Of a stretch of DNA of 64,000 bases, positions 1 through 51,856 are shown piece by piece. The DNA is from Fasciola hepatica (lineage: Eukaryota > Platyhelminthes > Trematoda > Plagiorchiida > Fasciolidae). The DNA lies in NCBI GenBank assembly GCA_948099385.1, contig CANUEZ040000193.1, positions 74,501-138,500 on the forward strand. Direction: 5' to 3'. The notes under the pieces were generated by a model. The model was not told the DNA's origin and did no database searches. It saw only the letters and a program-made list of their open reading frames with translations. Position 1 is the stretch's first letter, and each line of letters starts with the position of its first letter. The position numbers were made by a program, and so were the translations under genes.

Positions 1-462
1 AGGAATTCTGGAAGCTAGATTGGCCGTGGCCATTACCTGTCCTGTGCAACCTGAACTGAACTGAACTGAACTGACTGAAGACCTTGTGAGTTGCCGCGTG
101 GTTTGAATTTTCGAATTGCTCTCAGCGTTAAGCATTTTTGCATTGATTGGTGGAATAACACACGTTATTTCGCCAAACTAACGTATCGTAATTAGTATTT
201 CGGTACGCGTACTTTTTGAAGAGTTCACTCTCTTCAGAAGAGTTTATTCTCTTCAAAAACTGAGTATACCTTTTGGTGTCCTTTTTGGTGTTTTTTGTTG
301 GTGTCAGTGCAACTGATACCGGCTAACATCTTTTTGTGGCGCTTTTTCTAGTGTACTGTTTTTGTGGAACTTTTTAGTGTGCGGGTTTACTGCACCTGCC
401 TTAGTGTACCGTTTGTGTCTGTTCAAAAGTTGTGTTATTGTCCCACGGGTGTTTGAAACGAA
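1..462 (+). other. CR1 5' untranslated region
   Basis: No convincing ORF precedes the ORF1 start at 463. Positions 51-79 hold a CTGAA tandem run. Positions 8-80 resemble 4766-4840 downstream of ORF2, so the element shows similar sequence at both ends. From about 225 to 300 there are short direct repeats built on CTCTTCA and TTTTGGTGT. An internal promoter is expected for this class but none can be identified by eye. Confidence 0.5.
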
Positions 463-1843: not shown

Positions 1844-1857
1844 CCCTAGAATTAGCA

Positions 1858-9934: not shown

Positions 9935-10743
9935 CTACGGGCGGCTGGTCCGAAAACGCGATGGAACCAACAAAAGCCGCTGGTAGGATGATCGGGTTTG
10001 GATGAGGCAGGTGAGGCGGATTCACGGCGGACGTGGGCAGTGGAGGGCGCCCGTCCGTGCCGTTGTTTACGTGGGCTACTGCGAGGTGTAGGTATTTTAA
10101 CTCTGTCCTTGAAGGACAGGCGGCGCTGGATGGATCGAGAGTGCCGAGGCCTCTCCGGCGATTCATCCAGGTCGACACCCCTAGGATTGCGCGAAGTCGT
10201 GGCAATGAGGGGATTAGCCCCACTGCCGACACGTGCGACAATTTTGTCAGCCACGGCGGCTGCTCGTTCCAAGGACGAGTCCTCGAGGAGAGCAGTAACG
10301 GTGGTCTGAACGTGGAAGGGTAGAGAGTCCAACCACAGTTCCTTAACTATCTCCGAATCCTTATCGGCGGGCCCTGCCAAAGACCGGAGATGAGCTAGGT
10401 GGCGGCTGGGTTTAGTATCACCTATGGGGTGCCGTGCTAGTAGCTGACGCAGCCGTTCCTCCCGAGAAGGAAGGAAATGTAGTATAGCCTCCTTAAGCCG
10501 ATCGTACGGCTGCACTTGAGGAGGATTTAATACCAAATCCCTCACCGAGGCGATAACATCACCTGGAATAGCCTCTAAGGCATAGGAAAATCGTTGGCGT
10601 TGGCCAACAATCCTACGTGCCTCAAACTGCAGCTCTAAGGCTGCAAACCAAACCTCTGGATCATGAGGGATAAACGCCACGGGTTTAAAGGCAACCGCAG
10701 ACAGAGTGAGATCTGTGTCGAGCTGCGCCTTATCCTCTGACAT
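9883..10743 (-). CDS. CsRn1-type Gag, 286 aa
   Basis: Gag starts at an ATG (10743) after the primer-binding region. The N-terminal two thirds carry the capsid-like helical pattern usual for this clade ([17 protein letters not shown], then [31 protein letters not shown] and [11 protein letters not shown]). The C-terminus has the CHCC zinc finger C-x3-H-x9-C-x3-C ([18 protein letters not shown]) typical of CsRn1 elements. The protein should assemble the particle and bind element RNA. It ends at a TAG inside the frameshift stem and overlaps pol by about 50 nt in another frame. Confidence 0.9.
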
Positions 10744-10857
10744 GGCTACGTTGCGATAATATATCGTAAAAAATATATATCGTGCAACGAAAAGAGGACG
10801 TGAAACAGCGATAAATCACAGACTCACCGGGCGGGCGAATAATCCAGGAGGTTCTGG

Positions 10858-16420: not shown

Positions 16421-18312
16421 GCGCCGGCTGGAAGCGAGCATGATAAAACACGACTCGTTCTGAGACGTGAGTTCAACGCAAGTCTCCGTAGGGACCACGA
16501 AATCTGGTGGCCCCAACGTGCCTGAGATGGAACGCACTACCGCCATGGGAAATTTCCACAAGCTGTTCTATCCCATTCGAGTCACCAATAAGAAGTCATT
16601 GGGTGCGAGTGGAACAATCTGTAGGGCTGACGGTTTCGCAAATTCACAACCAGAATAGGCATCTCGAACGCTGGGTGGATCTCTCGCGGACACAGTTCAG
16701 CTGGCCCTCAGTGTTAGCATCTCATAGCTCTTCCGGCACACGTTCAGTGGTGCGTTTCGACAGGTCCACCTACCGAGGTGGAAATCCGAAGGGAAATCCA
16801 AATCTTGGAATGTCAGAAATCACCGGGCTCTGATGGCATTCCCCCAACCTATTTTAGAGACATTGGGGTGCAACTCGTTAGAGAACTCAGGTTTTGTTCG
16901 CAAAAGTCTGGAATTCTGAGCAAGTTCCGTCCTTGTAGGGAAAGTCAATGGTTATTTCCATCTTTAAGAAGGGCGCGCGCACTTACTGTGCTAACCATTG
17001 GGGTATGAGCCTTATCTCAATAATGCCGACGCTGCTTACATCTGTCATGCTTCGCAGGTTGTACCAAAAGCGTGAAAAGCTGACTTGTAAGGAGCAGGCT
17101 GGGTTTCGTGCCGGTCCTGTATGTCTCGATCAAATCTTCATCCTTGGACAGCTGTAAGAGCACGGTCACACATTCCAAAGACCAACAATCATCGTGTTCT
17201 TGGACATTTACGCGGCTTTTGCCTCTGTCGATAGGGCTGTACTATGAGATTGATTGTTGAGCCGTGGAATACCTGGGAAGTACGTATCGGTCCTCAAAGA
17301 GTTGTATTGTCACACCTAAGGTCGGGCCGGGGTCCAAGGCCAGCTTTCGTCCCCTGTTGTCATCTCCATTGGAGTAGAAAAAAGTTGCCGTATATCCCCA
17401 TTTCCATTCAAACGTTCCATAGAAGACGTTCTACGCAATGCTCTGTCTGGTGTTCCAAACGGTGCAGTTGAATTTCTCTCACGGAACAGAGTTTTGACTT
17501 GAAATATGTCGATGATATTACTTTGCTGATTGATAATGCGCAAGCAATACAACATGCTTTGGAGCACTAGCTGATTGAGATGTCCATATACCAAATGCAT
17601 TTTGGGCCTTCCAAGTACGAAGTGCTTTTACAAGACTGGCAGAAGCCTGCGCCTGCACCCACCGTTTGTAATGATCAGCTAGAGTGAGTTGACAACTTTC
17701 CGTAATTCAGGAGCTTGATACCAGCTAGAGGTGGTGTTACGGAAGAGATCAGTTCATGATTAGCAAGAGCTAGAACAGTCTTCGCAAACCTGCGACACCT
17801 GTGGCGCCGCGGTGACATCTGGCTGTCTCTTAAGAGACGGGTGTACGTCGCCGCGGTTTGAAGTGTTTTACTCTACGGTTGCGAGACCTAACCGCCTCGT
17901 GTTGAGGATGCTTGGCGTCTTTTTGTGTTCGACTATTGATGTCTGTGGAGTATTGCTCGCGTCTGGTTTGAATATCGAGTAAGTAATGACGAGGTGCGCC
18001 GTTGTGTGTGAGGCATGGATAGCCGCCCTCTTAACGAAGTGATCTTTCTACACCACCTCCGGTGGCTTGGTCATGTTTTAAGAATACCTGTCCATCGTCT
18101 ACCTTTCCGTGCCCTATTTGCACGTGCTGGACAAGGCTAGAAGAAGCGACGCAGCGGTCAGGCTATGACATGGCGTTGAGGTGTGAAGAAGTTAGCACCA
18201 GCATTGGTTTTGATTAGTGCTTCCCACCTTCGGGGTTAGGGCCAAGGGACGAGGATTGTCGTTGGTCAGAGATGTTGAGAGACATGGCTGGGCTTGGAGT
18301 CAGTGATGCAAA
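16420..18312 (+). mobile_element. RTE-type LINE, linker plus RT, decayed
   Basis: The copy begins in the linker between endonuclease and RT (GGCTGGAAGCGAGCAT, also at 55383-55397) and continues through the RT. VISIFKKGARTYCANHWGMSL, KEQAGFRAGPVCLDQIFILGQL and IIVFLDIYAAFASVDRAVL show the core. The C-terminal part from 17381 is almost identical to 30094-31025, including its stop codons. Typical motifs there are LLQDWQKPAPAPTVC, LRHLWRRGDI, LRWLGHVLRIPVHRLPFRALF and AMTWR. The 5' endonuclease is missing. Confidence 0.85.
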
Positions 18313-18529
18313 TGCTGTGCAGTCTGTCTGTTGTACAAGTGCGCTTCGTTATCACAGGAGTGTTACTCGGACGAATGAAATGGCAAAGGACATCAAAGAA
18401 ATACGTTAAGAAGCAAAAGGAGTCGGCATTTCACTTTTTATCAGTAACTCTCTTTTACTGTATTATACTTCCCTCCCCCTACTTTGTGATTGTTGTTGTT
18501 GCGTCGGCCTTTTGCTTGATGCCAAGATG

Positions 18530-20953: not shown

Positions 20954-21735
20954 GTATGTGGTAGTTGGTTCTTTGTTGGTTAAATTTCTTATTGGCTTAA
21001 TTTACCGCAGTGATGCTTCTTAGTTGAGATACACTTGTTCCAGCTTTTTATTTAATTTTTGAGGATAAGTGCTGCGGAATGGGCGAACCCCAATAACCTC
21101 AATGACCCGCCGCACCATTAAGGATACCCGGTGATCACGAGCGTCAGACTTGGAGCAAACAACCATGTAAGGCGGGATTCGGTAGTGAGCCGTGCGACGG
21201 TGGATTGCTGTCTGCCACCAAGGTAGCTAGCGGGATGTGAATCCTCGTGGTAATAGATGCTGAAGCCACTCGACCGTTGTTCTTCACATGTGTGCATTAG
21301 AATGGACCATCCCATAACCAGGGTGATTCTTTGCACTATCAATAATCGGCACCTTCAGCCTTGGAATAGAAAGTCACTCAAGTGCTTTGTAAGCCAGGCG
21401 TGCCAACGAGTCGGGCGACAGTGGAGTGCTACCTACCGGCGAACACTGTGGCGAAATTTCCATTTCAGGTTAATCAGCTGTGATCATTGTGCTAAAGGAA
21501 AGAATACAACTTGAGACTAATCGTTCAGGTCTTGAATCTATTTGCATTTTGTTACAGATCCATCAGATAACTACACATGATTGAACAGTTTCAATAGTAG
21601 ATTTAAACTATTTATAGTTTGGTTCATCGTGCAGAAACAACGCTCATATCACCGTTGAAAATCCATATAAGCGATTTGCCTCCGTGGACTTTCATGAGTC
21701 CTTAGTAAAGGACATACCCCGTAGTCACAAGAATC

Positions 21736-22045
21736 TATAGGAGACGAAGGGTATACGACCCTCGAACGTATCTTCTGTTGAGTTTCTGGGTGAAGTACAA
21801 ACGGGCCCCCCTTGGTCGAATGAACAGCGAGGACTCGAGTCGGTAAACAGATGCGGTAACGTATTGTGTATATCGTGGCACCGAAATAGCACCGATATAA
21901 GCCGTACACGAAACGTAAACGAAGCGCAGCAGTGAACCGAGAGTGTACAGTCGGCGAAATCCGAAAGTCTGTCAAAGGCGAAGTCGACGGGAACTTTGTG
22001 CTTCTCAAGTTCAATAAAACGAATACAACCGAAGAAAAGCGGTGC
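21736..22045 (-). repeat. Solo LTR related to the CsRn1-type LTR
   Basis: It resembles 5314-5620 in the same orientation. TATAGGAGACGAAG matches the LTR edge TATAGAAGACG. The block TATATCGTGGCACCGAAA, the following CCGATA and ACCGA words, and GTCGACGG-AACTTT are shared. Identity is clearly lower than between the two LTRs of the young element. No internal gypsy region follows, so this is a solo LTR or an LTR fragment of an older relative. Its right edge is uncertain. Confidence 0.7.
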
Positions 22046-22081
22046 ATTCAAAATTGAGTATCAGAACAGATCATAGAGATA

Positions 22082-22500
22082 GTAATACGTTGCGACTCTC
22101 GAGAAACCTGCGCACTCAATCTCAGCTTGCCACTTTAGTCACTCCAGCCCGCTACGGAAAACCAGAAGGCAAAAGCCCGACTCGCCAAGAATGTGTCTTT
22201 CACAAAGATTACTATGCTGCATATAAAACGAAGATCTAACATTCCCGAACTCGGGCATCTAGTTAGGTTCAAGCCCTGTTGGGCCGATTAGGTGGATAAA
22301 ATGGTTTTCCGGTCGATTATTAATCCTTTGACCCAGTTTGCGTCCGACTGTAGATAAATGCTGGATCAGCGAAAAAGAGTTACGTCACAAGCGGTCCGAT
22401 AATTTATTGACTATTGGTTGTTAAATCCGGCCTGACACACTCGAGTTGGTTATTGGCTTGCCTACAAAAGTATTTTTTTCGTCTTAACATCCTTACAGAA
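22082..22500. repeat. Dispersed repeat X, copy 2
   Basis: Counterpart of 18643-19054. Both run from GAGAAACCxGCGCACTC through the TATAAAA word and CCGGCCTGA to a CTTAAC-TCC-TAACAG-like end. The copies differ throughout, so both are old. Confidence 0.7.
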
Positions 22501-23519
22501 AGGAAGTAAACATAAATATCTGGAAGATTTTCATTTTCTCGGAACAGTCGAGTTTACCACAAATCCACAAACGTCACGGAGAATCTTGTGACTTTGATTG
22601 AGGAACTAAATAGAATCTCAGTAGTCCAGGTTTTCAGGGTCGATATTACATGACAGGTCAGTCTTATTCATATTGGCTTATTTTTTTAAATACTATGCAG
22701 TTCTACTGTTTGTTTTTGTCCGGGAGTGAAATGGCTTGTATGCTTTCGTGTGGCGCGGCATTAGAGGAGATTTAAATTTTCTGTTCGCTATTCTGCCACA
22801 TCCGTTTGGGTATTCATAGTCGAGGACATTTGTGATCTAGAGTACCCTAATTGTTCGATGGTAATAATTACGGGTCATTCGAGAAAAAAATGTGTTGTCA
22901 TCAACACGTTGTTGTCGGTGGAAAAATTAAAATTAGGCGATGTTTCGGTTACCCTACTGTTTTTCGGGAAATCGGTCGTTTAAGGTCCATCGAAGAAACC
23001 GAAGACACGTGCCAGTGTTACGAAGAGTGGTAAAAATCCACACTAACCTAGAAGAACGAGAAGCGATGGTCTTTATCGGCGAAGGAGAATATAGGGGTAA
23101 TGACACCGTCTACTGACGGATTGATTCGTTTATCAAACAGCACGTCATCGCTTGTCCAGAATCGACGAAAAGATTGAAGCCAGCGAGCATACCGACGCAT
23201 TGCGGCCGCTACTGGTCCTGGCGCGACAGAACGAATGTGCTCTTATTCTCCTATAATTCTGTTCTATATGTAAGTAGATATCGGATATAGCCTGCAAAGC
23301 GATCCTGAGTGTATGAAAAAATTGGAAATTCAAAGAAACTGCTGCAGCTTATGGCTGCGTGGATTTCCTGGTCACGGGCACAGATGCTTCATTCCTGAAG
23401 TTGCGTGTTTCGGCCGGTAATGAGGAATCAGTGGCAGTGGAAACAAATGCAGGCTAACAGTAGCTGATCAAAGGTTTCGGGCAGTTTGCGGAGGCGGCAA
23501 GTCGCATGGTTTTCTGAGA
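22501..23519. other. Unassigned intronic stretch
   Basis: AT-rich DNA with short open frames only. I recognise no domain or repeat. Confidence 0.4.
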
Positions 23520-26380
23520 AATTCAGTTTCGGTTTCAGTTTATTTAAACACTGACCGCCGCACTTCTGGGCTCTGCTTTCGGCTGCTACCTTCCAGCATT
23601 GTCCATTAAGGAGCAAAAATAGAAGCACAAAGTGAAAAAGATCCAAAAAAAAGTAATAGGCGGAAATCACGAGGACAATCCCGAATGCAACTACGTCACC
23701 CAGCCATATCGCTCACTGTCTCCAACCATCTGCTAGTCGGGTCACGCGGACCCCAACCCGGAAGTCGAACACGTCCTACTTGGCCAAGTCCATTGGTTAT
23801 AGCCTTCATACCTTTTCGTCATGTCATGGACTGACCACCCTGACCTACCTTCCAATCACCACCTGCCTCAGAGAACAGCGTACGCCGGAGAAGTTTATCG
23901 GTGGGCATGCGTAACACATGTGCCAACCACCCTCACCTGTTTAGATTCAGTACTTGATCCAGAAACAGACAACTGGTTCCCAACAAGTTGCGCCGAACCT
24001 CAGCATTACTGATACGGTGTTCCCACCATAATTGGGCAATTCAGCGGAGACATCGATGCTCGAACACCGTCAGTCTTCGTCTGTCTCATCTTTACGGCCA
24101 TGTTCTTGAGCTGTATAAAAGAACTGACCTAACCGTTGCATTGTACACTCTACCCATAACAGACAGTTGGATGTCACGCCGGCGCCAGAGATGACAAGAT
24201 AGCCAAAAACAAACGCGCCTTCTGCATGCGTGATGACATCTCATTTGATATCAGGCCACGTGCTGGGATGTAACTACCCAGGTAAGAAAACTTATCTACT
24301 TCAGCTAGAACTTCCCACACCAGGACAAGATTTGGTGTCGAGCCAGCTCTGTCCTGAAGCAGCATTTTACACTTCAAAGGTCCGAAACTCATCCGAAACA
24401 TAATGGCACTTGTTTAGGCTATTTGAGAAGGCTTGCAACTTACCTGGATCTTCACTTGCGTATTCCAAATCAGACATTTTACTGCCAATCAAATTACAAA
24501 ATCGAAGAGGAAGGGTGAAAGAGGGCGACCCTGACGAACACCACTTTCCATTGTTAACTCGGGTGAAAGATCGCCGTAAGCACGAACTTGGCTTCGGCTG
24601 TTCGCGTACAGGCATTAGAAAAGAGTAGAAAACCCCTCTGGCATACCCTTCAGTGAGAGGCAGTGTCAGAGAACTGTGCTGTCGACTGAATCAAGCACCG
24701 CTTTCAGCTTAAGAAAACCAGATGATGGGCTTACGGAAGATGTGTTTGTGCTCTAAGGTTTGCCGAACAGTAAAGATGTGGTCGATACAACCCGGACCGG
24801 GTCTGAAACCGGCTTGATTTTCACGCGTATGCTGTATAATCGGTGGAGAATGAGCCTGGTGAGCAGCTTGAAGTGATACCTACCGAGCTAATTCCTTTGT
24901 GGTTTCCACAAGAGGACATATCGCTTATCTTGTAAATCAGCACAATCATAAATTCACACCATTTCCTAGGAATCTGCTCACATCCCAAATAATACGGAGG
25001 AGTTTTGTTAACTCCGAAACCAAATCTTCGCCTCCATCCTTGAAAAAAATGGAGACAACCCATCCGGTGCAGCGGCTTTGTATCTTTTCAAGTAACATAT
25101 CTCCCGCACAATTTTCATCTCTGATGATGGAATGATATCTGCATGTATCGGTTCACCGGTAGGTATACTCGGAAGGTCCAGTGTTGAAGTGCACCAACTG
25201 AATGGTCCCCTAAAGTGCTCCGCCGATTGATTCAGACTACGTCCCTGGAAATGAATCAGTGAACCTTCGGATTCCTTGAATAACTCATACCGGCTTTCCG
25301 TGGACCGATACCTCGGAAAAGGTTGTGAGTATTCCCAACAGAGGCAGCCTTTTCTATTTTCCCATATTTGGCAATCCACTACTGCTCGCGGTCATTTCCC
25401 AGGCTCCTAGTCAGTTGGCGTCTCAGGGATCTACGCACTTCATTGCATGTGGCATACGGGGGGAGAGATCTGCGAGCATTCCATCGTTTGTGCGGCCTAC
25501 TTGAACCTTAGTCCTGTGTGGCGTTAGACGCTGCATACTAGGTTTTATCGATCTGCAGCCGGCGTTCATCTGAGTCTTGCACATCCGGCTGCATCGACAG
25601 CGGGTACACAGCTCTGCTTGAAAAGTAGATCGTCGGCTGTCGTCTAGAAGAAACCACGCGGGGTGGATGGCATTTACTTTGGTGCGACGACGAACGAAAC
25701 GTAAACAGAAGCGAGCACGTATCAAGGCGTGATCAGTGTCCACAGGCGTAGAGCAAAATGAACGACAGTCTTCAAATGATCCACACCAACGGTGACCAAT
25801 CACAATATGGTCAGTCTGAGTCCGGCGTTGTGAAGACGTAGGAGGATGTCATGTCGTTTTGTGCGGCTTCTTATGGCAGAAGTTTGTACTTGCCAAAAAC
25901 AATCTGTGGTCGGAGCACAGCTGAATGTGAAGATCGCCGTTATCGGTACGATTGGCTGGGATAGCAAATTAGCCTCTAATATGCCTTTCGGAATGCCCCA
26001 GTTGGCCAACTTTGGCGTGAAATCCTCGGGAACGATCACCACGTCTGTTGAACGCACGGTTCACAGCAACTGAGGTAAATCCTGATAAAATTCTTTCTTG
26101 GTTTCAGAGGAAGTGCAGTCAAATGGGCACGTACACAGACACGACGAAGAAGTATTGGCACTTCAGTTTGTTGTCGTTGACACGAACAGAACCTTCATAC
26201 CGAACTGCACACGAAAGACTGCTGACTGGAATCCAGTTTAGCAGTGCAAGATGAGCTCTCGTGGTCAAAGCAATCCGAGCGCCGGACTGACCACGAGCAT
26301 TAGGAACCTGACCATGCGACACACGAAGAGTCAAGCTAGAAACTGAAGTTGTATCTGGGGCGCTTAGCATGATCTTTTAT
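23520..26380 (-). mobile_element. RTE-type LINE with endonuclease and RT, decayed
   Basis: This is the longest RTE copy. On the minus strand it starts with endonuclease pieces (RGQSGARIALTTRAHLALL and QYFFVVSVYVP, 26119-26340; VIVPEDFTPKLANWGIPKG, near 26030), then TPVDTDHALIRARF-like and RRTKVNAIHPA (25670-25740). The RT follows (RYKAAAPDGLSP, 25080-25120; LEYASEDPGKLQ, near 24460), then the C-terminal region (VLVWEVLAEVDKFSYLGSYIPARG, about 24240-24330). The tail has TTTCAG microsatellite sequence at 23520-23545. Several frameshifts make it non-coding. It lies antisense inside the GID8 intron. Confidence 0.85.
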
Positions 26381-27349
26381 GCTTGTTTCAGAGACAACAT
26401 ACGTCTATTTTAAAAATGTCGTATTTTAGAGAGGGCAGCCTGTTGCCTTATCTGACATAATATGTGAGCGGTAAAGACAGCCAAGTGAAATGAAGATATA
26501 GGCTTAAGGAGTGCGTTCGATTCATACCCAACTCCTGAATTACTTCTTTCTTCAGAGCCGTAATAACCCGTGTCGTTTTGCATCGATCTTAAATTAAGAG
26601 AGGAAAGATTGATAAGGCCCTTTACAGGGAAAATGCTGGAGGTTTCTGGGCGAGTTATACTTCGCAACTGCCCACACCACAGAAGGGGTTTTTCTTTGGG
26701 AACCCAAACCGGAGCCTTTAACTCAAAAGTCTGACCCACAGGGCAGTGGGGCATTAATCCAGCATAAGTGCGTGCCCGAAGAACCCTTGAAGGAACTTCT
26801 TCTGGTCTGTCACGTGAGAGCTGATTGTTGCAACCAATCTAGCTTGTGTTTGTCCGTGTTTTGTTATCGATCCGCTTTTCGGATTCAGTCCCTAGCTCCA
26901 TGCAAGCGGAACGTGGATGGGGCAGCATCCTTCGAGTCCGGGACTGCCCAGCTCAGGCGGGCGATAGCTGCCCAGTGAAGTGCGATGACTTCTCCCACCG
27001 TCGAGGGAAACCCCAGGTACTCCACTCCCACATCTATTTGGTAGAAGTTTTTAGACCGGTAAACTGTTTCTCCGTGTTTATTTGCTGGAGTGTCTTTTCC
27101 AGGGTCGTACTGATTAGAACCGGATTCCGAGACTGGACTTCGTCTAGCATCTACCCATTGACCTGTCAGGCATGATTGTATCTCCGGCTTAAGGAATTCA
27201 TTCTGCATAGCTCTTTGGATCATGGAAGCACGCAAGCCATCACACCACGTCAAGGTGCAGTCCTATTATGATGGTTGGAGATTTTAACTCAACGAAGGCT
27301 GGTTTTAGGTGGCCTATTTTTGTTGTATTTTTTCCTACGGCCGGCGTCT
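26381..27349. other. Unassigned intronic stretch
   Basis: Open frames of about 110-120 codons exist on both strands (26410-26754 minus, 26885-27253 minus), but their products show no recognised domain. The stretch lies where the integrase and 3' LTR of the following gypsy remnant should be, so it may be a replacement or a later insertion. Confidence 0.35.
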
Positions 27350-28943
27350 ACCCCAAACGCGTAAGTCAACGGCTTATGATCAGTGTAGACGATAAAGCTT
27401 CTACTTTCCAAAATGTGTTGAAAGTTTTTTATTTCAAGGTAGATCGCAAGCAATTAACAGCCTGAGGTGCTGTAACGAGTCTGTGGCGGTTGGAGTTTTT
27501 GAAAGAAAATGACAATGGATGCCTGACACCATTAACCATCTGTGGCAATTCGGAGCCAACGGCCGTTTGGGAGGCATCTTTCCGCAATGTGAGAATAGCG
27601 TTGTTATCATTGCTTAATTGTACGAGCGTGAGAACTTTTGACAACACTTGCTTGGTCGCTTGGAAAGCTAATTGAACTTCGGAATTCATTAAGAACTGGC
27701 GCAGCCTTTTTTTCATAAGTTCAGTAAGTAGCTGCAAGATCTCCAGACAGTGGTATGAATCGATAATATGGTAGTTGGTAGTGCCCAGGAGACGATGGAA
27801 ACTCTTGAACGATTGCGGTTCCGGTCATAGACAGTATTCACTTTGTTTTGGATGGGTCGGATGCCTTCACTGTCAACATACAGGCCATAGAACTCAACAG
27901 ATTTGGCGCCAAGATACATTTAGAGATTTCGACTGAGATGCCATAATTTTGGAAGCGTTGGAACACCTGGCGCGAATGCTCGCCATGTTGATTTCCATCC
28001 GTACTAGCAACGAGGACGTCGTCAATATAAACGAAAGCAAAATCCAGACCCCGAAAAACTTGGTCCATGACTCTAGAATGTTTGAACGGCGTTGCGCAAG
28101 AATTCGTACAATCCAAATGATGTCGTAATGGTGGTCTTCGGAACATCCTCAGACGCGACGGGAATATGGTAATGCACTCTTACCAAATCAAGTTAGCAGA
28201 AAACGCGTTTGTCACACAAACTGTTGGAGAAGTTGTGAATGTGTGGAATTGGGTAACGGTCGGGTACCGTGGCGTTGTTAAGGTTGCGGAAATCACCACA
28301 CAGGCGCCAGTCACCGCTGTGCTTTGGAACTATATGAACTGGGGAGACCTAAGGACTGCTTAATGGGCCAATCGTCCTCAAGTTTAGCATGTTATAATTC
28401 TGCTTTTGCTACAGATAGTCGCTCAGGCAATAATCGGCGGGGGCGTGGATATTGGTGGACCTTTGGTGGCAATGTAATGTTGGTGCGTGTGAGGGGGACG
28501 TTTGCGGTTGGGTGACTGCTGGAAAATTGTCCAAAATGGAGAAGAACGGAGAGCGTACTGTCATTGGACGTACTCCGAGAGAGTTGGTGGAGGTATCTAC
28601 GCCTTACGTTTTAAAAAACGTATTACTGTCCAGCAGAACACGATGTTTCACATCAACCGCAAGCGAAGGGGCAGAGGAGAAATCAACTCAGAGAATAGGG
28701 TAATTAACTTCGGCTATCCTGAAAATCCAAGGAAGCTGTTAGGGTAAACTCAAGTAAACCTCAGTAGCTTTTGACCGTATATCTTCATTGAAGATCTGTT
28801 GGCTGCTTGCAAAAGGAGAGTGGTAGGTCGCAGATTGTGTTAACCAGACGGTATGGGGGCAACACTGACTTGAACATCTGTGTCAACCAGAAACCGCATT
28901 CCAGTAGACTGATCAAAATTGTAGAAAGAGCGACCAGATTTAA

Positions 28944-28989
28944 AGTCAGTGGCGGCGGTCTGCATTACTGACTGTCTGTCTCGTTTCCC
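28944..28989 (-). promoter_or_regulatory. -1 frameshift signal in the older CsRn1-type copy
   Basis: On the minus strand gag reads TCG GGA AAC GAG..., which contains G GGA AAC in frame (28983-28989), followed soon by the gag stop TAA. The -1 frame opens into pol (GKRDRQS). After a 9 nt spacer, AGTCAGT can pair with ACTGACT over a 16 nt loop. The arrangement mirrors the one at 9862-9907. Confidence 0.72.
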
Positions 28990-29809
28990 GAAGCTGTTGC
29001 TTTGAAAGCACATGATGGCTGACAACGACAGCTTTCTCTCTCCAAGACGTCGGTGGTATCAACAAAACGATGGTCGAGACGAGGCAGAGTAATTACGACA
29101 TGATTTTGAGCGGGACATGGAATGTTGGCTATTGATGTACTGGAGAACAGCATTCATCTGGGAGGTTAGGTTGGCCATTTGTTCTTTTAGTTCCGAGATA
29201 CAATGGGGAACCGATGTCTGAGACGTCATAACGGCCAGCGCGTTTGTGTGGTCCACCTCCGGCATTCTGCCAGCGGTGACTGCTAGTTCCTCAATCAAAA
29301 CGCCTGGGTTGAAGGACGCAGAAATTTCCTTGGTCGACGGAGGAAGGTGTTTCAACCAGAGGTCGTAACAATAAATGCTTCGTTATCGTAGAAGGTAAGA
29401 AGGCTTCCGATCGCCGAGAGAAATATTTATGGACAGAGTTTCGGTGTGATTTCGATCAGAAAATTCTGTCTGATGGATAATTGTGTTCTTGATTTCATCG
29501 TAAGGATTGTTCGGCGGGGGTTCATAAATAAGATCACACTTCCTCCGCAACTTCGGCAGAAAAGGCCTTGAATAACAAGTACATCACAGAGTAACAACGC
29601 TCACGATTGATGTGAGGAAACGCCTATGTTTGTGCAAATCACGGGCTTGGATTTGAAATACAAAGCGAAGGTAGTTTCAAATTGACTGAAGCTTCGAGGG
29701 CGTTGTGGTTGATTTCAGTGCCATCAGAATTCATGTTGGATGGGGATGGTGTACAAAATATAGTAGCTGTGAACCATGAGTGGAATGCACAACACCCAGA
29801 AGCAGGAAC

Positions 29810-29823
29810 GCGAGCTCACCAAT
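29810..29823 (-). other. Primer-binding site of the older CsRn1-type copy
   Basis: Next to the inner edge of the LTR, the minus strand reads TTGGTGAGCTCGCG. Its first 11 bases, TTGGTGAGCYCG-like, agree with the site at 10858-10876. Confidence 0.55.
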
Positions 29824-30058
29824 TTGTAATGAAAAGGCAGATGTGGTGTCTCTGCAGTCGCGTTTATTCGAAATGTGAACAATCAAGCATGTACAGTCTG
29901 TACACAAAACGACCGTACGTGCGTGCGTTTGCGTCAGTAGCAGTTGACTACGGATCGATACGCGTACGAAGCAACCGAGCGTCGATGGTACAACAAAGAT
30001 GAGAAAAAAACCGAATCGGTAGGATACCCGAACCGAGGCAGTCATGCCTGACGTAACA
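29824..30058 (-). repeat. 5' LTR of the older CsRn1-type copy, about 235 bp
   Basis: Boundaries are inferred from TGTTACG at the outer end and ATTACA before the primer-binding site. No partner LTR is found in the window, so the length is an estimate. Confidence 0.5.
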
Positions 30059-30093
30059 ATCGATACGCGCTCTACATGTATGTTATGTTCCAC

Positions 30094-31025
30094 AAAGTTG
30101 CCCCATGTCCCCGCTTCCTTTCAAATGTGCCATAGAAGACGTTCCACGCAATGCTCTGTCTGGTGTTCCAAACGGTGCAGTTAAATTTCTCTCACGGAAC
30201 AGAGTTTTGACTTGAAATATGTCGATGATATTACTTTGCTGATTGATAATGCGCAAGCAATACAACATGCTTTGGAGCACTAGCTGATTGAGATGTCCAT
30301 ATATCAAATGCATTTTGGGCCTTCCAAGTACGAAGTGCTTTTACAAGACTGGCAGAAGCCTGCGCCTGCACCCACCGTTTGTAATGATCAGCTAGAGTGA
30401 GTTGACAACTTTCCGTAATTCAGGAGCTTGATACCAGCTAGAGGTGGTGTTACGGAAGAGATCAGTTCATGATTAGCAAGAGCTAGAACAGTCTTCGCAA
30501 ACCTGCGACACCTGTGGCGCCGCGGTGACATCTGGCTGTCTCTTAAGAGACGGGTGTACGTCGCCGCGGTTTGAAGTGTTTTACTCTACGGTTGCGAGAC
30601 CTAACCGCCTCGTGTTGAGGATGCTTGGCGTCTTTTTGTGTTCGACTATTGATGTCTGTGGAGTATTGCTCGCGTCTGGTTTGAATATCGAGTAAGTAAT
30701 GACGAGGTGCGCCGTTGTGTGTGAGGCATGGATAGCCGCCCTCTTAACGAAGTGATCTTTCTACACCACCTCCGGTGGCTTGGTCATGTTTTAAGAATAC
30801 CTGTCCATCGTCTACCTTTCCGTGCCCTATTTGCACGTGCTGGACAAGGCTAGAAGAAGCGACGCAGCGGTCAGGCTATGACATGGCGTTGAGGTGTGAA
30901 GAAGTTAGCACCAGCATTGGTTTTGATTAGTGCTTCCCACCTTCGGGGTTAGGGCCAAGGGACGAGGATTGTCGTTGGTCAGAGATGTTGAGAGACATGG
31001 CTGGGCTTGGAGTCAGTGTTGCGAA
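30094..31025 (+). mobile_element. 5'-truncated RTE copy, near-identical to 17381-18312
   Basis: The two segments align over about 930 bp without a single length change (constant offset of 12713). They share the same stop codons and frame breaks, for example after VDNF and in the LLYGCET block. Differences are few and cluster in the first 80 bp. Both end at the same 3' point (GGAGTCAGTG). This copy lacks everything upstream, as expected of a 5'-truncated retrocopy. Confidence 0.9.
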
Positions 31026-31235
31026 TGATCTACGGTGTCTGTTAGACACTCGTATTGCATAAATATATAAGTGTCATTCAAAGAAACAAGCTGGCAAAAA
31101 GTATAGTGAGGAGAAGCTGAGATACGGAACCATATATTTCCTATCGGCTGCTTATACTCTGTAGTACTTCCGCCTTCCCGTTGTTGAAGTTGTGTTGGTT
31201 CCGTTTGTTCCATGCTCGATTTCATGCCGGTCTCT

Positions 31236-31239
<4 letters not shown>

Positions 31240-31297
<58 letters not shown>
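31240..31297. repeat. (TA)n microsatellite
   Basis: About 29 TA units, ending where an inverted piece of the hammerhead repeat begins. Confidence 0.98.
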
Positions 31298-31299
<2 letters not shown>

Positions 31300-31432
31300 T
31301 AAGTAGTATGTAAACGTGTGGACAAAATTTTCCCGGAAGCACACGACCAGACGATTCAAATTAGATTCTAGTGAACATATAACATCGCAGTGTACAAGTA
31401 TGAAGACGAGTGGGCAGAGGAGTACCAGGTAC

Positions 31433-31475
31433 GCATACCTGATGAGCGGCAACAACCGCGAAACCGGTCGTGTAC
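31433..31475 (+). ncRNA. Hammerhead ribozyme motif, copy 1
   Basis: Core CTGATGA at 31439-31445. Stem II is GCGG/CCGC with the loop CAACAA (31446-31459). GAAA at 31460-31463. Stem III is the self-complementary ACCGGT (31463-31468). The cleavage triplet GTC falls at 31467-31469. Stem I pairs GCATAC (31433-31438) with GTGTAC (31470-31475) with one mismatch. All conserved core bases are present. The lack of a stem III loop suggests that it works, if at all, as a dimer, as known for the small hammerheads of Penelope-like elements and retrozymes. Confidence 0.85.
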
Positions 31476-31676
31476 TTCCGGGGAAATGTTTTCCACACGT
31501 TTACATACTACTCACTATCAATATGAGCGCTTGCACACGTAGCTTCGTTGTTCGTTGGGTTAGCAGTGACCCAGACACGAATAACTATGAGAAATCACAG
31601 TTGTGATTCATTTGTGGGCTCTTCGATGAAGAGTATCCATTCACACTCCAGACGATTCAAATTAGATTCTAGTGAA

Positions 31677-31780
<104 letters not shown>

Positions 31781-31825
31781 TGGTAGTCAGTAGTTTGTAA
31801 ACGTATTGACGAAATCTTCACGGAA

Positions 31826-31868
31826 GCACACGACTGGTTTCGTGATTGTCGCCGCTCATCGGATGTGC
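31826..31868 (-). ncRNA. Hammerhead ribozyme motif, copy 2, decayed
   Basis: On the minus strand, stem I GCACAT pairs fully with GTGTGC, so both strands have changed relative to copy 1 in a compatible way. The core reads CCGATGA (T to C in the second base), GAAAC is intact, stem II is weakened (GCGG with TCAC), and stem III reads ACCAGT. It is probably inactive but clearly homologous. Confidence 0.75.
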
Positions 31869-32092
31869 CCACCCAGTATTCCCGTGCCTACTCATCTGTC
31901 TACCTGCACCCTCCGATGGTAAATCTTCACCAGGGTATAATTTGAATCTTCTGAAATGGTAACGGATAATCTGCGTCTAAGTGTACACAGGTGAATCACA
32001 ACTGTGGTTTCTGTTAGTTATTAGTGTCTGGGTTGCTGCTAACCCAACGAACAATGAGACTGCATGTTCAAGTGCTCATATGAAAGGTAAGT

Positions 32093-32770
32093 AATGGAGT
32101 CACAGGCAGTGTACTTGGTCCCTTGCTTTTTCTGATGTATATCAACGACGCAAATATAGCCTTCCATATCTATTCTTTCCATCTTTGTGATGTAAGTACG
32201 ACACTCAGAAACATTTGCGCGGATCTATCTGCACTTAGTCGTTGGTGCCACGACAAACTTCTTAGCTGTTAAATGTCAAGTTTTATTGATACTAGTGATA
32301 TTCATCCCCGAGATTTTGAAATTGCAATGGGTCTCTTATTACTTGCTCATTCACCATTCGTCATCTTGACCTCGCCCTCTCAGTATCCCTGATTTTTTTC
32401 ACAGCTTGCTTTTATCGTATCAGCTACAGCTAGGTGAAGCCTGAATCTTGTTTGCTGCGCTTCCTATCCTCAGGAGAGTATCATTTGTATCCCTTAATCC
32501 CATGTTAGACCCTAGCTTGAATACTACCCATTAATTTTACCAAGCATGCCTGAATCTATTAGGATGGCTCTAAAAATAATACAAAGCCTCTGTTACTTGG
32601 ATGGCCCGCAGTGTTAAGCTACGATGAACATTGCCAGTACATAAATAATGACTCTTTGACTTTGTCCCTTGAAACAAAATTTAGTTTGCTTGCATATATT
32701 GCTACATCAACGGCCCTAGTTATTATCAAAATAGTAGCTGAGTTTGCTCTATGGCCGCGCTTCTTTCTCC
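32093..32770 (+). mobile_element. CR1/jockey-like LINE RT scrap
   Basis: The start reads GVTGSVLGPLLFLMYINDA, the RT block ahead of the catalytic site. LSALSRWCHDKLLSC and later LETKFSLLAY-like pieces follow. No YADD and no ends are visible. It is a short, old remnant. Confidence 0.65.
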
Positions 32771-33779
32771 TAGTTTGTGGTAAGCTCTAGACTAAGCCGT
32801 CTATCAGTATTTCAGAACTTCAAACCGAGTCTCAAGTTCTGTCTACACGTACTTCGTACCTTCCGTTACCCATGTCCTGGATCCTTATCAGAAGATGGAA
32901 CATTCGAGAATGGTCTTGACTTTAAGTGGCATACTCGGGCCTCTATCCTCATCGTATCATTTGAAATTCCAAAGATCAAACGGATTCATTGCTGTATCTA
33001 TTTTCATGCCCGTTTTTCATTTGGGTGGTTTTACCATCATCCCAAAAATCCCCACTAGCCGCGACTGCAATATGTTTACCACAGCAAATCTCAGCACGCG
33101 CAGATGGGACGAAAACAGAACATAAATGGGCTCAGATATAGTATTTTTACATTTTTATATTTATACCATATTTTATCACATAACTGGGGAATGAAAGAAC
33201 CTAGGTTTGATAAAATGTTGATATGTGGTAAATAAAGTACAGACAAATATATCGAAATAACACGGGTTATTTCATTTGCTTATTTTCAGTCTGTGAATGT
33301 TAGTTACTCATTCTGTAACAAGTCTATTTTTAATTTAACAGTTACACCTGCTTTCAGTTTCGCTACTTATACAAACCGAGAAATACTCAGTGATCGAAAA
33401 ATTTCGTAAAGGTTTGGCGGGAAATTTTCGTTTCATTTCTTAACAATAAGGATCAAAGTTTCCCATGAAGAGCCCATTGTTGCGCAACGAACCACGTCCG
33501 AGGAAGTTCGTCAGCCTGTATTCTCTATCAGTTCCAGACAATCATTCAACCTGGACAGTCGACGAAAACCCAAGATTTACTGGGGATGCTGTCCTGGTCA
33601 AGGTGCCATTGCACACAAATGTGGTTTTCACAAAACAGTATGAGTGGTTAACGCGTGTAAAGTGACAATTTCAGCTATACAATAGCTAACGAGTGGATAG
33701 ATCAAATAAAGGTGTTTTCTTTGTGTTTTGTCTACTCCCAAACATTGAAATAGTAAGTTGCGAAATTCAATCTTTCCAG
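32771..33779. other. Unassigned intronic stretch
   Basis: AT-rich intronic DNA. Small open frames such as 33465-33665 have no recognised product. AATAAA-like words occur but have no gene context. Confidence 0.4.
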
Positions 33780-34045
33780 GGTATCTTCGACCGGCCTGTG
33801 CAATACCGCCGTTTCCAGCCTTTTACTCTACGGTTGCCAGATCACCCCGCATTGGGAATGCTCGAGGGCTTTCCATGTTTGACCACCGATGTCTTTGAAG
33901 CATTGCTCGTGTCTGGTGGGGACATCGTGTAGACATTGACTAGATTCGTTGTCACGTTGTACGCAGTTTGACCGAAGTATCATTCTGCACCGCCTCCGGT
34001 CGCTGGGACATATTTGTCCATCGTATACCTTCCTATGCTAGAAAC
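33780..34045 (+). mobile_element. RTE C-terminal scrap
   Basis: The DNA follows the RTE 3' coding region: TTTTACTCTACGGTTG, then GATGTCTTTGAAGCATTGCTCGTGTCTGGTGGG, then the CACCGCCTCCGGTCGCTGGG block (compare 17867-18070). It ends at ACCTTCC about 310 bp before GID8 exon 2. Confidence 0.75.
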
Positions 34046-34356
34046 AACAAAATGTACGGGGGGAAAGCAAAGTAACTACGCACTGCTCCTCTTGACCGTC
34101 CACCTTCTGCTTCCCGTAGTACTTTATTCCCCCAAAATTTTTACCGTTCAATGGTGCTGGTATCATCCTTGATTTTTTACTCGTTGGTAAATGATAAAAA
34201 ATACACCTTAATGAATCGCATATCGTTCGAGACTTCACGGGGTACCAAACTAGTGAAATAACTAATGACCTAAGGGGTTCTAATTTGATTTCAAACGTCT
34301 TTTTACATACCAGCTGACATCGAATCTTTTATACTTTCCGATTCCCATCATATTAG

Positions 34357-43149: not shown

Positions 43150-43260
43150 CGTACATGGGCAATGTTGTTGACGCTCATCAGGTATGCGTACCTGGTACTC
43201 TCCTGCCCAGTTATCTTTATACCGTGAAACAGATCGTGTGCTTCCGGGAAGTTTTGACCT
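43150..43260. repeat. Rearranged hammerhead repeat: two half motifs facing each other
   Basis: On the minus strand the 5' half is kept: ACCAGGTACGCATAC followed by CTGATGAG (core at 43174-43181) and CGTCAACAAC, matching 31424-31456. On the plus strand the 3' half is kept: GTGAAACAGATC and GTGTGCTTCCGGGAAG (43224-43250). The halves belong to different strands, so an inversion has split the ribozyme. The plus-strand half leads towards the PLE at 43430. Confidence 0.7.
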
Positions 43261-43429: not shown

Positions 43430-45430
43430 AAATTTGTCAGGATGCCTTAGTTTTGCCACTTGGATGTAAAATACTGTCCTCAACCAATGTCAAACCGAGG
43501 TTCTCTCATTCGGTTTGAAATATAGCACCCCACCTAGAAACATCAGTTTTGTGGAATCACAATCTCGTTTTGAATATTTCTTCGACGAACTGTTATCCCT
43601 GAACCGAAAATAGACGGAAGCAAAAATCTGATTTAAAGAAAGACTTGTTGATCTCGTACTTCAATACAGATGCGCTCCAGCTCGACAGAGGAGTCTTTTA
43701 AATGAAAATCATCTGAAGGCACCTCAAGAATTGAGATGCAACAACAATATCGTCATAATGCAACCTGACAAAGGGTTGGGGGTGGTCATCATGAATGAGA
43801 CAGATTAGATAGGAAAATGAAGATTGTTCTGACAGGTGCAACCCAATTTCAAGTATGCAACAAAGAGGACAACGTAACAAGTCTAGAAAAAACCATCTCA
43901 CAAGATGTACAACTGCTACTCGAGGGTGGGATCATTGATCAGTGCTCCGCGAAACAACTTAAACCGAGCGGTCGTCAACCATCTCAGCCCTACGGACTAC
44001 CTAAGCTGCGCACGCTCAGTGTGTCATTTAGACCCATCCTATCAATGAACTACTCAACGCAACACATGTTAGCGAAGTGGTTGGTCAAAACACTGAGGCC
44101 AATCACAAAAAACCTGACGCAATACAGCCTTGAAGATAGCTTCGAGCTAGCTAAAGCTCTGGATTACATCAATATCAGAAACTGACATTCATCCAGCATG
44201 GACATTAAGTCACTATTCACCACCGTGCCGGTGCGCGAAACACTTACTTTTAATTGTGACTACGTTCACAAAGAGAAAATCAACATCAAAATTCCAGTAA
44301 CGAAACTGAAACTCCTATTATTGTGGTAAACTGAAAACGTTTCAGTATTCTGAGCAATTATTTTCACCAAACTGATGGCGTGGCAATGAGGAGCCCACTA
44401 GCCCCCCCCCCCACCGCTCTCCGAAATATTCAAGACGATTCTGGAGAATAGGATAATAGACACTATCGGTGATACGCATCTCTACAGGAGATACGTCGGT
44501 GATATCTTTGTTATCAGCATCTCAGAGCGGGACCCCATCGATCTCTTCCGTAGACTCAATAAAGTTCATCCGAACACAGCTCACCGTCGAGCACGAGTCT
44601 GGGAACAAGTTCGCATTTCTCGATATTATGATAACCAGGCGTCCAGGGGGTTGCGTGGACAGGCCGCTTTACCGAAAGCTCACATGGTTGGGACAGTACC
44701 TGCATTTTACGAGTTTTATGCGCCTGAGTTACAAACGTGAGCTAATGCGAACCATGTATGACAAAGACTGCAAAATCTGTACGACAGTTAGTCTGAACTG
44801 TGAAACGGAGCTGCCAAATAGCATGTTATAGTCAAGTGGCTACCCATAACATTTTATCAAAAGGTACTGAACAGCATGCAGTCAAAGTCAGTCCCTAAAT
44901 GTAAGGTTTTCTTGCATTCATCCTTCAAGGGCGATGACAAACAAACCGTTTGCGCGCCGCCTGAAATCGGCATTGAAGCAGTCATACAATGCCGCCGAAT
45001 CTGCCCTACTCTACACATGCAGACAGACATTCGTCCCTCCACCAACCAAACTTTATCAGTTCATCCCACATCACACCTATACATGTCCACGCGTGGGAGC
45101 TCGGCCGCCTACCCAGGCCGAACTGAACAGCAACTTTGACTGAGGGTGACGGGACAGGTCTCAAGGTGGGTGGACACCTATGTTGACCAACTGGAAGCAC
45201 GCCGCAAGAGGTCACAGGCCAGGAATCCGTCAGCCTTTTGCACTGCACTGCATTTGCTAGACAAAGCACTGGATCGACCGCACAGCTGAGTTCTATGTGA
45301 TCTTCTTTGCCACCAATTCAAGTCTACTACAGTCCAAAGATGGAAGCTTTTTGTGCAAGTAAAGGGAGTTATTCGACGCTGCTCTGGTAAGAACATGATG
45401 TTTGTGAACTTACCACCGGTAATATTATTG
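43430..45430 (+). mobile_element. Penelope-like element (RT and GIY-YIG endonuclease), decayed
   Basis: Plus-strand fragments in order: FGLKYSTPPRNISFVE (about 43510), NIVIMQPDKGLGVVIMN (43750), QPYGLPKLRTLSVSFRPILS followed by MNYSTQHMLAKWLV (43980-44085), SMDIKSLFTTVPV (44198-44235), RRYVGDIFVIS (44489-44520, catalytic YVDD now YVGD), EHESGNKFAFLDIMITRR and GQYLHFTSF (44590-44715), and a GIY-YIG-like endonuclease around YTCP-R...PGRTEQ (45070-45130). Frameshifts and a C-run (44402-44412) break it. Such elements encode RT plus GIY-YIG endonuclease and belong to neither the LTR nor the LINE class. Confidence 0.85.
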
Positions 45431-48400: not shown

Positions 48401-48588
48401 CAGACCATATCAATAAAATACGGAGATAAACAACGACAAATTATGATGTCGATAACAGGATGTACATTTGTTCGTCCTTCTCCAGTTATCATCATCGCCG
48501 TACAGCACTAAACAGTAGAGCAAGCCCTTCTGACCACCGCCTATCTCCAGTCATATTCGTACCAATGAGTGTAGGCTGTTTGAGGTTG
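45495..48588. other. Unassigned stretch
   Basis: AT-rich DNA. The open frames at 46307-46570 (plus), 47074-47361 (minus) and 47870-48082 (minus) have no recognised domains. No repeat was identified. Confidence 0.4.
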
Positions 48589-49284
48589 CCGCCATCCTCA
48601 GCTAGAGACGAATGGGCATAAATGGACCTCAGTGACATTTCAATCTCCCTCAGTGGAACCATCAGTTTATCTTGTCAATCGGTATCAGCAATTCTCAAAA
48701 ACGATGAATCCCACAGACTACCATTAACGACTTGAGAATTAATTACCAAAAAACAACTGTCTCGCCACAATGGATTTCCTAAATGCTACGGTGGGTAGGT
48801 ATATTCCAGATTACCTTTACGTTTGTGTTTTTCTACCTTCAGTCACAAAGTTCACTGAGTGATAATTACAACAAACAGTGGTTATCCTGGCGATTGCACA
48901 CAAAAAGAGCTAGAACATGTTCCATTTACGTTTATCCTGGTATGATATTGTTTCATTCTGCTGCTCAGTATATCATTCTCTAACTGTCACCCCCAGATCA
49001 GTATTGGTAGATGTTCTAAGACCCCTCTAATATTAGCCACTCCTACACATCCAGCAAACTTTCCTGTATTCGCCGTGCATCGTTTACCCAATGACCCCAT
49101 TCTCATCAGGGGTGCAGTCACGTAATTTATTATTATTGTTGTTATTATACAGGCTTGAACATATTTTTAAGGAGTTGTCAGTTGTCGGGAAAAATGGGGA
49201 GAGATTCTACACACCAAAACGGGTTAACAGCTTAGAGAAAACTACGTCCTTGTTTGCTAAAACACGAGCAAGGAACGGAACTAC
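48589..49284 (+). repeat. Inverted repeat, left arm, 696 bp
   Basis: Its reverse complement recurs at 50156-50851 with the same length. Every block compared by eye was identical. The arm contains the last part of a LINE (minus strand) and about 500 bp of adjoining DNA. It holds ATTATTATTGTTGTTATTAT at 49127-49148. Confidence 0.95.
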
Positions 49285-50155: not shown

Positions 50156-50851
50156 GTAGTTCCGTTCCTTGCTCGTGTTTTAGCAAACAAGGACGTAGTT
50201 TTCTCTAAGCTGTTAACCCGTTTTGGTGTGTAGAATCTCTCCCCATTTTTCCCGACAACTGACAACTCCTTAAAAATATGTTCAAGCCTGTATAATAACA
50301 ACAATAATAATAAATTACGTGACTGCACCCCTGATGAGAATGGGGTCATTGGGTAAACGATGCACGGCGAATACAGGAAAGTTTGCTGGATGTGTAGGAG
50401 TGGCTAATATTAGAGGGGTCTTAGAACATCTACCAATACTGATCTGGGGGTGACAGTTAGAGAATGATATACTGAGCAGCAGAATGAAACAATATCATAC
50501 CAGGATAAACGTAAATGGAACATGTTCTAGCTCTTTTTGTGTGCAATCGCCAGGATAACCACTGTTTGTTGTAATTATCACTCAGTGAACTTTGTGACTG
50601 AAGGTAGAAAAACACAAACGTAAAGGTAATCTGGAATATACCTACCCACCGTAGCATTTAGGAAATCCATTGTGGCGAGACAGTTGTTTTTTGGTAATTA
50701 ATTCTCAAGTCGTTAATGGTAGTCTGTGGGATTCATCGTTTTTGAGAATTGCTGATACCGATTGACAAGATAAACTGATGGTTCCACTGAGGGAGATTGA
50801 AATGTCACTGAGGTCCATTTATGCCCATTCGTCTCTAGCTGAGGATGGCGG
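50156..50851 (-). repeat. Inverted repeat, right arm, 696 bp
   Basis: Mirror copy of 48589-49284. The inner boundary lies in GTAGTTCCGTTCC and the outer one in GAGGATGGCGG. The spacer between the arms is 871 bp. Confidence 0.95.
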
Positions 50852-51856
50852 TATCCTTGTGATATTCTGTGAACGGGGTCTTATTGATCTCTACGTTTAG
50901 TAAAATGGGTTATGGTCGAAAAGGTTCTAGAAACGTACGTTCTTTTACGCTGTGAGGATGGCGGATAGTCATGTCGACCCAGCTGTGGACAGGAAATAAA
51001 CATAGGAATTGGTTAAGCTGGTTCATGTAAGTTACATCGATTATATAGCGCAGGTAATGCATAACAGACAAAAGACCGCCCACATTTTTAGGCATATGTT
51101 GTGTTCTGAACGCCTGATGGCTACCAGACCGTTTCGATCTAACTCTGTCGTTCAAATATATGTTCCCTATTCGTTGTCCGAAGCAGATTTAGCCCAAAAG
51201 CTACTGGTACAAATAATCCACCATCCATGGAACCAGTCACATTCCTTTATTCTATTTTCGTCTTAGTTACTATCGCAGTTTCGTGCACATATCACACTGT
51301 TTTATGAAATCGATTAGAAAATGTCTGACTGAAGGTTAGCATCTAGCTGTGTTCGTCTTCGGATATAGTACGCAGTGCTCCAAACTGAATAATTCCGGGA
51401 ATTCCACATCAAACCAGCGAAATGCGGTGAGAAAACAATTGGTGCACTAGTGGTCGAAAGGTCATCACCGTGAAATTTAGTCTGTGATGTCCCAGGTTCC
51501 AGTCCTGACACCGCCGATCACTTCGTCATTCAACAGCCATTGAGTAACCGCGCCCACCTTCCAAAGCTATCGTGCACTGTCGTATAACAACTGAAGGAAA
51601 TAAAAGGTTATTTCTCTTTTGTTTTGTCATGGCGGTTGTCTGTTCGGGTGGCTTCACTTTGGAAAAGCTACCTTCCATTAAAATTAAGACAAGTAGATTT
51701 CATTCATGATATCACTTCCTTACAGAACTGTTTAATTATCGAGAAAATCAATTTTCCTATCTCTCTGTCAAATTTGTTTATGTCTTTGCACTACCACTGT
51801 AAATTGTCCTAACTTACTGTAACCCTATGGTAATGGTATTCCGTTTTCGATTTTTG
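50852..51856. other. Unassigned stretch
   Basis: No recognised genes or repeats. Overlapping frames on both strands at 50910-51266 look like chance. Confidence 0.4.

Follow-up and report, generated by a model that had tools for sequence, protein, structure and literature searches.

The sense strand of a GID8 intron in Fasciola hepatica contains a motif with the make-up of a hammerhead ribozyme, and the locus raises the questions of what carries this motif, how it came to lie there and whether it could act on the host transcript. The window analysed is a stretch of 64,000 nucleotides. The intron occupies 20954..34356 of the plus strand, with GT at 20954 and AG at 34355-34356 (splice junctions 20953/20954 and 34356/34357). 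The flanking exons, one with its end at 20953 and the other with its start at 34357, match structures of human GID8, and the joined protein of 274 amino acids shares 92% identity with GID8 of Fasciolopsis buskii along its full length. Among the other protein matches an unnamed protein was 97% identical over 54%, and the next named ones belonged to other flukes. The first-pass annotation had placed the ribozyme in the sense strand of a GID8 intron, and the flanking exons and the fitting splice sites bear this out.

The core of the hammerhead (stem I, CTGATGA, stem II, GAAA and the ACCGGT palindrome) lies at 31433..31475 on the plus strand, with the predicted cut after 31469. Direct reading of the letters found CTGATGA at 31439-31445, GAAA at 31460-31463 and the cleavage triplet GTC ending at 31469, so that all core bases and the cleavage site are where they had been claimed. 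Stem II, annotated as 4 bp long, is GCGG/CCGC (31446-31449/31456-31459) with the loop CAACAA, and stem III is the loop-less palindrome ACCGGT (31463-31468), also as annotated. Stem I (GCATAC/GTGTAC, 31433-31438/31470-31475) is present too, but in the window copy it contains a single mismatch, C31434 x A31474. The annotation lacked an outer part of stem I, which together with an internal loop spans 31425-31432 and 31476-31481: 31425-31428 pair with 31478-31481 with one mismatch, and the internal loop separates this helix from stem I. Both the stem-I internal loop, which is the layout of canonical type I hammerheads, and the 6-nt loop II are present in the window hammerhead as predicted loops. 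With its CUGAUGA / GAAA / UH core and three stems, of which stem I is open and stem III is a palindrome only, the motif is a type I hammerhead.

Scored with the Rfam covariance model Hammerhead_HH9 (RF02275), the segment 31421..31492 (+), which includes outer stem I, reached 38.4 bits, with E-values of 6.8e-8 in a search of 1.2 kb and 3.6e-6 in a search of the whole window. The first-pass annotation had asked for a model hit above threshold: the match is significant, but it lies under the gathering score of 52, at which the default Rfam scan returned 0 matches. The relatives behave in the same way. HH9 gave 33 matches of 36-41 bits at unit spacing in a 10 kb array stretch (L015), and the 37 matches in four sampled stretches (L015, L021, L037 and L041) scored 36.3-41.9 bits, all below 52. 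Because all these scores fall under the gathering score, annotation at that score would miss the window hammerhead as well as the 37 matches of its relatives. A chance motif is ruled out by the E-value and by thousands of relatives in the genome, and the hammerhead at 31433..31475, judged from sequence, is confirmed as real.

The claim that the hammerhead lies inside a repeat also stood: it is carried by a 301-nt unit that has thousands of relatives in the genome. We number this unit u1-u301 from 31348; the hammerhead core then starts at u92 and the cut falls after u122. The plus copy, delimited by the 301-nt direct-repeat spacing and by chain mapping, extends over 31348..31683 and comprises one full 301-nt turn and about 34 nt more; it ends at ATATA, followed by (TA)n. 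Directly upstream, in head-to-head orientation, lies an inverted 52-nt partial copy (31297..31348, minus strand) that was absent from the first-pass annotation. It corresponds to u119-u170, that is, the 3′ half of the hammerhead and its tail, and matches 31466-31517 at 90%. Its 3′ end runs into a TA microsatellite (31240..31295), which forms the left outer edge of the insertion. A further TA microsatellite (31679..31778) separates the plus copy from an older full unit on the minus strand (31777..32081), which by chain mapping runs from u174 round to u177. This older unit, likewise missing from the first-pass annotation, is 75-78% identical to the plus copy (227 of 301 columns, or 75%, in a global alignment, and 77.5% by chain mapping), and its hammerhead is degenerate, with the core CCGATGA and an HH9 score of 13.7 bits. 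The locus most likely represents a drifted twin insertion beside an older one. A third, rearranged fragment, in which the 5′ half of the hammerhead lies beside an inverted 3′ half, was found at 43163..43255 (minus strand). A direct repeat of about 30 nt (31347, 31648) was considered as a target-site duplication and rejected: it is internal unit sequence, with a counterpart within the minus copy. The GC content of the window unit is 0.45. A consensus scan for RNA polymerase III boxes in this unit found no A box and no strict B box, only a relaxed B-like match, and a search for tRNA genes found none; a tRNA-derived SINE was dismissed on these grounds.

To what extent the unit is repeated in the genome was assessed with a pattern that fixes the hammerhead core and leaves the letters of stems II and III free. 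The assembly (1,499,821,164 bases, 656 contigs) contains 6,955 exact matches, whereas the reversed pattern, used as a control, gave 0. A 201-nt query found copies at multiples of 301 on several contigs; as only 40 of the 2,187 first-look candidates were scored, the counts obtained in this way are lower bounds ("at least"). A stricter pattern, the only one applied to viral contigs, had 0 matches there. Twelve array stretches (L009-L020, about 119 kb or about 395 unit lengths) contain 299 hammerheads detectable by the core motif, nearly all spaced at 301 or its multiples, from which it follows that roughly a quarter of the array length lacks an exact core motif. All 297 of the 297 complete array hammerheads, which were found by their core motif, retain both stem I and stem II along with the ACCGGU palindrome; among dispersed hammerheads, 62 of 69 retain the palindrome. 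A palindromic stem III is thus the rule in the family and not an accident of a single copy. A type I hammerhead in tandem repeats of 301 bp, within the range of about 150-450 bp, and a GC content below 50% are features of metazoan non-LTR retrozymes, and we consider it probable that the family is a retrozyme-like satellite with a dimer-type ribozyme that passes through the RNA cycle set out below.

Dispersed copies were studied in 60 stretches around core-pattern matches, taken in contig order. A further 20 stretches at listed places, fetched afterwards and analysed with the same limits, served as a held-out test, and ten of the listed places were left out of the fetched stretches; the held-out stretches are not independent in one respect: they share the selection for an intact ribozyme, because all dispersed loci were chosen by the same pattern, which requires one. 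Eight of the 80 stretches were set aside as a second, diverged hammerhead family, seven of the first 60 by hand (L025, L031, L040, L051, L063, L066 and L080) and L090 by rule. This second family shares only about u45-u147 with the 301-nt unit, mostly lacks TA flanks and recurs at a spacing of 7,461 bp around L031 on contig C3; L040 was dropped with it, though one chain there ends at u34 beside TA. The main set consists of 53 loci with 77 mapped unit chains, two of which are truncated where the fetched sequence stops (L044 minus, L062 plus). Chains shorter than 40 nt were left out of the end, TA-flank and held-out counts, and those shorter than 25 nt out of a set of 111 chains used for 5′ ends and lengths.

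At 53 of the 60 loci and at 19 of the 20 held-out ones we found copies of the unit in permuted frames, the chains ranging in length between about 40 and 692 nt. Dispersal of this kind appears to be that of the mobile copies of metazoan non-LTR retrozymes. The window unit has only two ATAT motifs, at u30 and u174, and 56 of the 77 chains have their 3′ ends there (37 at u174-178, 19 at u30-35). The other 21 chains have 3′ ends outside both sites; in five cases the end lies close to a further ATA, at u163-165. In the held-out set 22 of 30 chains ended at the two sites and 8 outside. A TA tract within 60 bases was present on at least one side at 52 of 53 loci (held-out, 17 of 19) and on both sides of 20 of the 32 single copies; the background on a given side was 16 of 3,130 positions in the flanks of L021-L040. 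Neighbouring chains were arranged head-to-head in 21 of 24 pairs, the others being two minus-minus pairs and one plus-minus pair 397 bases apart. Among the 11 held-out pairs within 100 bases, eight were head-to-head, with one each plus-minus, plus-plus and minus-minus. The pattern of 3′ ends, TA flanks and head-to-head pairs thus held in the test stretches, with exceptions.

The lengths and 5′ ends of the chains bear on the nature of the template. More than one unit was present in 26 of the 111 chains (the longest given is 692 nt), which means that for these the template was circular or multimeric and could not have been a linear monomer; long chains of this kind would be expected from linear multimers as well as from circles. 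Chains of 300-312 nt are slightly in excess (n=9, against 4 each at 287-299 and 313-325 nt), a small surplus that hints at a complete turn round a circle. A pile-up of 5′ ends at u123, as a footprint of cleavage, was not clearly seen in these 111 chains from a ribozyme-selected sample: 4 of 111 5′ ends fall at the cleavage site (u119-127), or 3 of 32 among chains without the searched motif. The insertions themselves therefore do not prove cleavage. Apart from one cluster at u259-288 (27 of 111 chains; window 31606-31635) the 5′ ends are widely spread. The cluster coincides with a predicted hairpin, and is perhaps a reverse-transcriptase stop.

Whether the ribozyme could fold was examined by energy predictions, made without tertiary contacts. 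The active fold of the commonest array hammerhead lies, as a monomer, 4.7 kcal/mol above the predicted minimum (5.5 for the HH9 consensus). A dimer of two array cores, joined by a six-pair stem III, has a predicted energy of -46.1 kcal/mol, the cofold minimum being -50.0 kcal/mol, a gap of 3.9. The prediction thus places the active fold above the minimum even in the commonest array copy. The self-complementary ACCGGU helix III is too short to close in a monomer, which makes the ribozyme one of the dimer type; cleavage as a dimer is itself a prediction. The first-pass annotation had stated that such hammerheads act as dimers. The conservation of the palindrome in array and dispersed copies is as expected of a dimer-acting ribozyme. 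We regard it as plausible from these models that the family's ribozyme works as a dimer.

The window copy differs from the commonest array hammerhead by one change in stem I and one in outer stem I, each of which costs one pair. Its active fold lies 14.0 (monomer) and 27.5 kcal/mol (dimer) above the minimum, and its canonical stem I had a pairing probability of 0.0 in all eight contexts tried. When the inverted copy upstream was part of the folded sequence, as in five of these contexts, the strand with the cleavage site (31466-31473 and 31475-31476) was predicted to pair with it at probabilities of 0.96-1.0. The window copy is, according to these predictions, worn, masked by its inverted neighbour and probably inactive in the GID8 pre-mRNA. 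Of the earlier argument that the intron copy would be transcribed, the sense-strand placement stands, but action upon transcription is made doubtful by the lost pairs, the gap of 14 kcal/mol and the pairing with the inverted copy.

The evidence from arrays and dispersed copies can be joined into a cycle. Satellite arrays would be transcribed into multimers. In these, as suggested by their structure and by published work on newt and axolotl, adjacent hammerheads would be joined by the palindromic stem III and would cleave in dimeric form, setting free RNAs of 301 nt. Ligation of these monomers would produce circles, which should resist re-cutting because stem III cannot form inside one unit. 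A reverse transcriptase encoded elsewhere would then extend the 3′ ends of nicked or broken TA microsatellites annealed to AUAU (u30-34 or u174-177); the 3′ ends and flanks of the copies are the footprint that this step would leave. As (TA)n is self-complementary, both DNA ends could prime, and the head-to-head twin insertions are the footprint expected of such double priming. Target-primed reverse transcription would account for the preference of 3′ ends for TA-complementary motifs, the scatter of 5′ ends, the flanking TA tracts and the twins. We have fairly good confidence in the reading that the hammerhead in the GID8 intron belongs to a dispersed and worn copy of a non-coding, retrozyme-like 301-nt repeat with an RNA cycle of this kind.

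A more specific form of the last steps is offered tentatively, and we think it rather less likely to be right than wrong: the ribozyme-made RNA circle might serve as a telomerase-like template, to which the broken or nicked ends of TA microsatellites anneal, TATA to AUAU, are extended by a reverse transcriptase on both sides and have their cDNAs joined head to head. If this were true, the retrozyme would be an RNA patch for breaks in TA tracts that needs no endonuclease, and TA tracts would be its genome-wide niche. On the return of animal retrozyme RNA to DNA, a 2020 paper says no more than that a circle needs to be "properly primed", with either target DNA or a small RNA as the primer (PMC7229834). 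The 72 dispersed loci examined point to one answer, priming by microhomology at TA tracts, and thousands of further copies are present in the genome.

The window contains other repeats. Two 952-bp copies (17381-18332 and 30094-31043) are 98% identical, and each is followed by (TA)n after about 200 bases. They lie in a stretch with broken frames that, on our own reading, resemble reverse transcriptase; the two pieces tried had no Pfam match. This stretch is a candidate source of the machinery acting at TA tracts. Long open frames at 457-4623 belong to a LINE (endonuclease, reverse transcriptase), and those at 6584-10815, on the minus strand, to a Gypsy-like element with reverse transcriptase, RNase H and integrase. 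A 702-bp inverted repeat of 99.7% identity occupies 48583-49284 and 50156-50857.

Three other explanations were weighed against the retrozyme-like cycle. The repeat could be an ordinary satellite that spreads at the DNA level, by extrachromosomal circles and recombination at TA tracts, with the ribozyme as a passenger. The arrays are indeed large and homogeneous, TA tracts are prone to recombination, and circular DNA would also give permuted copies longer than one unit. What speaks for an RNA intermediate instead is polarity: 3′ ends favour ATAT motifs while 5′ ends are spread, as in reverse transcription and not as in recombination. The intact ribozyme in all 297 array motifs points the same way, though homogenisation and the selection by core motif could also explain it. 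We regard spread at the DNA level as unlikely. Recruitment of the intronic hammerhead for processing of the GID8 pre-mRNA would agree with its sense orientation and intact core, and it has precedents in the intronic hammerheads of amniotes and of the schistosome SmPoMuc genes, as described in the accessible parts of two sources (PMC2576457, PMC6155905). The stem I that departs from the commonest array form, a predicted fold other than the hammerhead, with masking by the inverted copy, and a placement and structure like those of other dispersed TA insertions make recruitment highly improbable, and action of the window copy on GID8 is, from the folding models, not expected.

The element might also be the terminal repeat of a Penelope-like retrotransposon. 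About 0.6 kb from the hammerhead fragment at 43163..43255 there is a broken remnant (43799-44831), which by its motifs is a putative Penelope-like reverse transcriptase, and the diverged second family (7 of 60 loci, by our own assignment) shares just the hammerhead region. Pieces of the remnant had no Pfam reverse-transcriptase match, however, and in tblastn they matched 3 of the 80 loci, none adjoining the repeat and each at least about 400 bases from it; this test is weak for 40 of the 80 loci, because those stretches are 1.0-1.4 kb wide, with flanks of about 0.5 kb. Moreover, the repeat builds closed 301-bp arrays. We consider an origin as a Penelope terminal repeat very unlikely, and keep to the retrozyme-like satellite.

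Hammerheads carried by repeats are known from several animals. For Fasciola, no report of a hammerhead ribozyme or retrozyme was found in the open-access texts examined, and the word "ribozyme" has 0 occurrences in the available text of a study of Fasciola hepatica transposable elements (PMC11270206). In schistosomes, according to the accessible text of three reports, hammerhead repeats are known (PMC8490949, PMC2576457, PMC5993326). The SMalpha or W-element resembles the present unit in being a trematode repeat that carries a type I hammerhead, also in introns; unlike the window unit, in which neither an A nor a strict B box was found, SMalpha is described in the text seen as SINE-like with RNA polymerase III boxes (PMC8490949, PMC2576457). 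The small hammerheads of Penelope elements (Cervera 2014, Luense 2017) share with ours a weak or absent helix III and a proposed action as dimers, as summarised in available parts of later papers (PMC7761336, PMC6155905). The same texts describe them as lacking helix III or loop-loop contacts, and some as lying in Penelope terminal repeats (PMC7761336, PMC6155905). The first-pass assignment to this small Penelope-type form is less well supported, since the window hammerhead, unlike those variants, possesses an internal loop in stem I, and in the copies examined (half of the loci being 1.0-1.4 kb wide) the repeat is not adjoined by any Penelope piece.

A close match is with the metazoan non-LTR retrozymes, which are known from coral, mussel and axolotl; in the portion of the source available, platyhelminths are named as hosts without detail (PMC7229834). 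As described there, they too have type I hammerheads, tandem repeats of 150-450 bp, a GC content below 50% and thousands of copies (PMC7229834). The fluke copies differ in lying in TA microsatellites, in their 3′ ends at ATAT and in their head-to-head twins, and their RNA circles are inferred; a term search of the main text of PMC7229834 found neither "microsatellite" nor "inverted". The hammerheads of most invertebrate retrozymes self-cleave efficiently, by the same partial account (PMC7229834). Palindromic helix III sequences, with the possibility of dimers, are mentioned for several repeat-borne hammerheads in the text available of PMC3088659. In helix III the fluke ribozyme resembles HHR_Amex1 of newt and axolotl, in which a weak, palindromic helix III consists of a single base pair and a palindromic tetraloop and which, in the accessible description, needs a dimer to cleave well (PMC7229834). 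The likeness is one of described structure, and unlike HHR_Amex1 the fluke ribozyme has an invertebrate host. It may be an invertebrate satellite ribozyme designed to act solely in dimeric form, so that multimers would be cut and circles spared.
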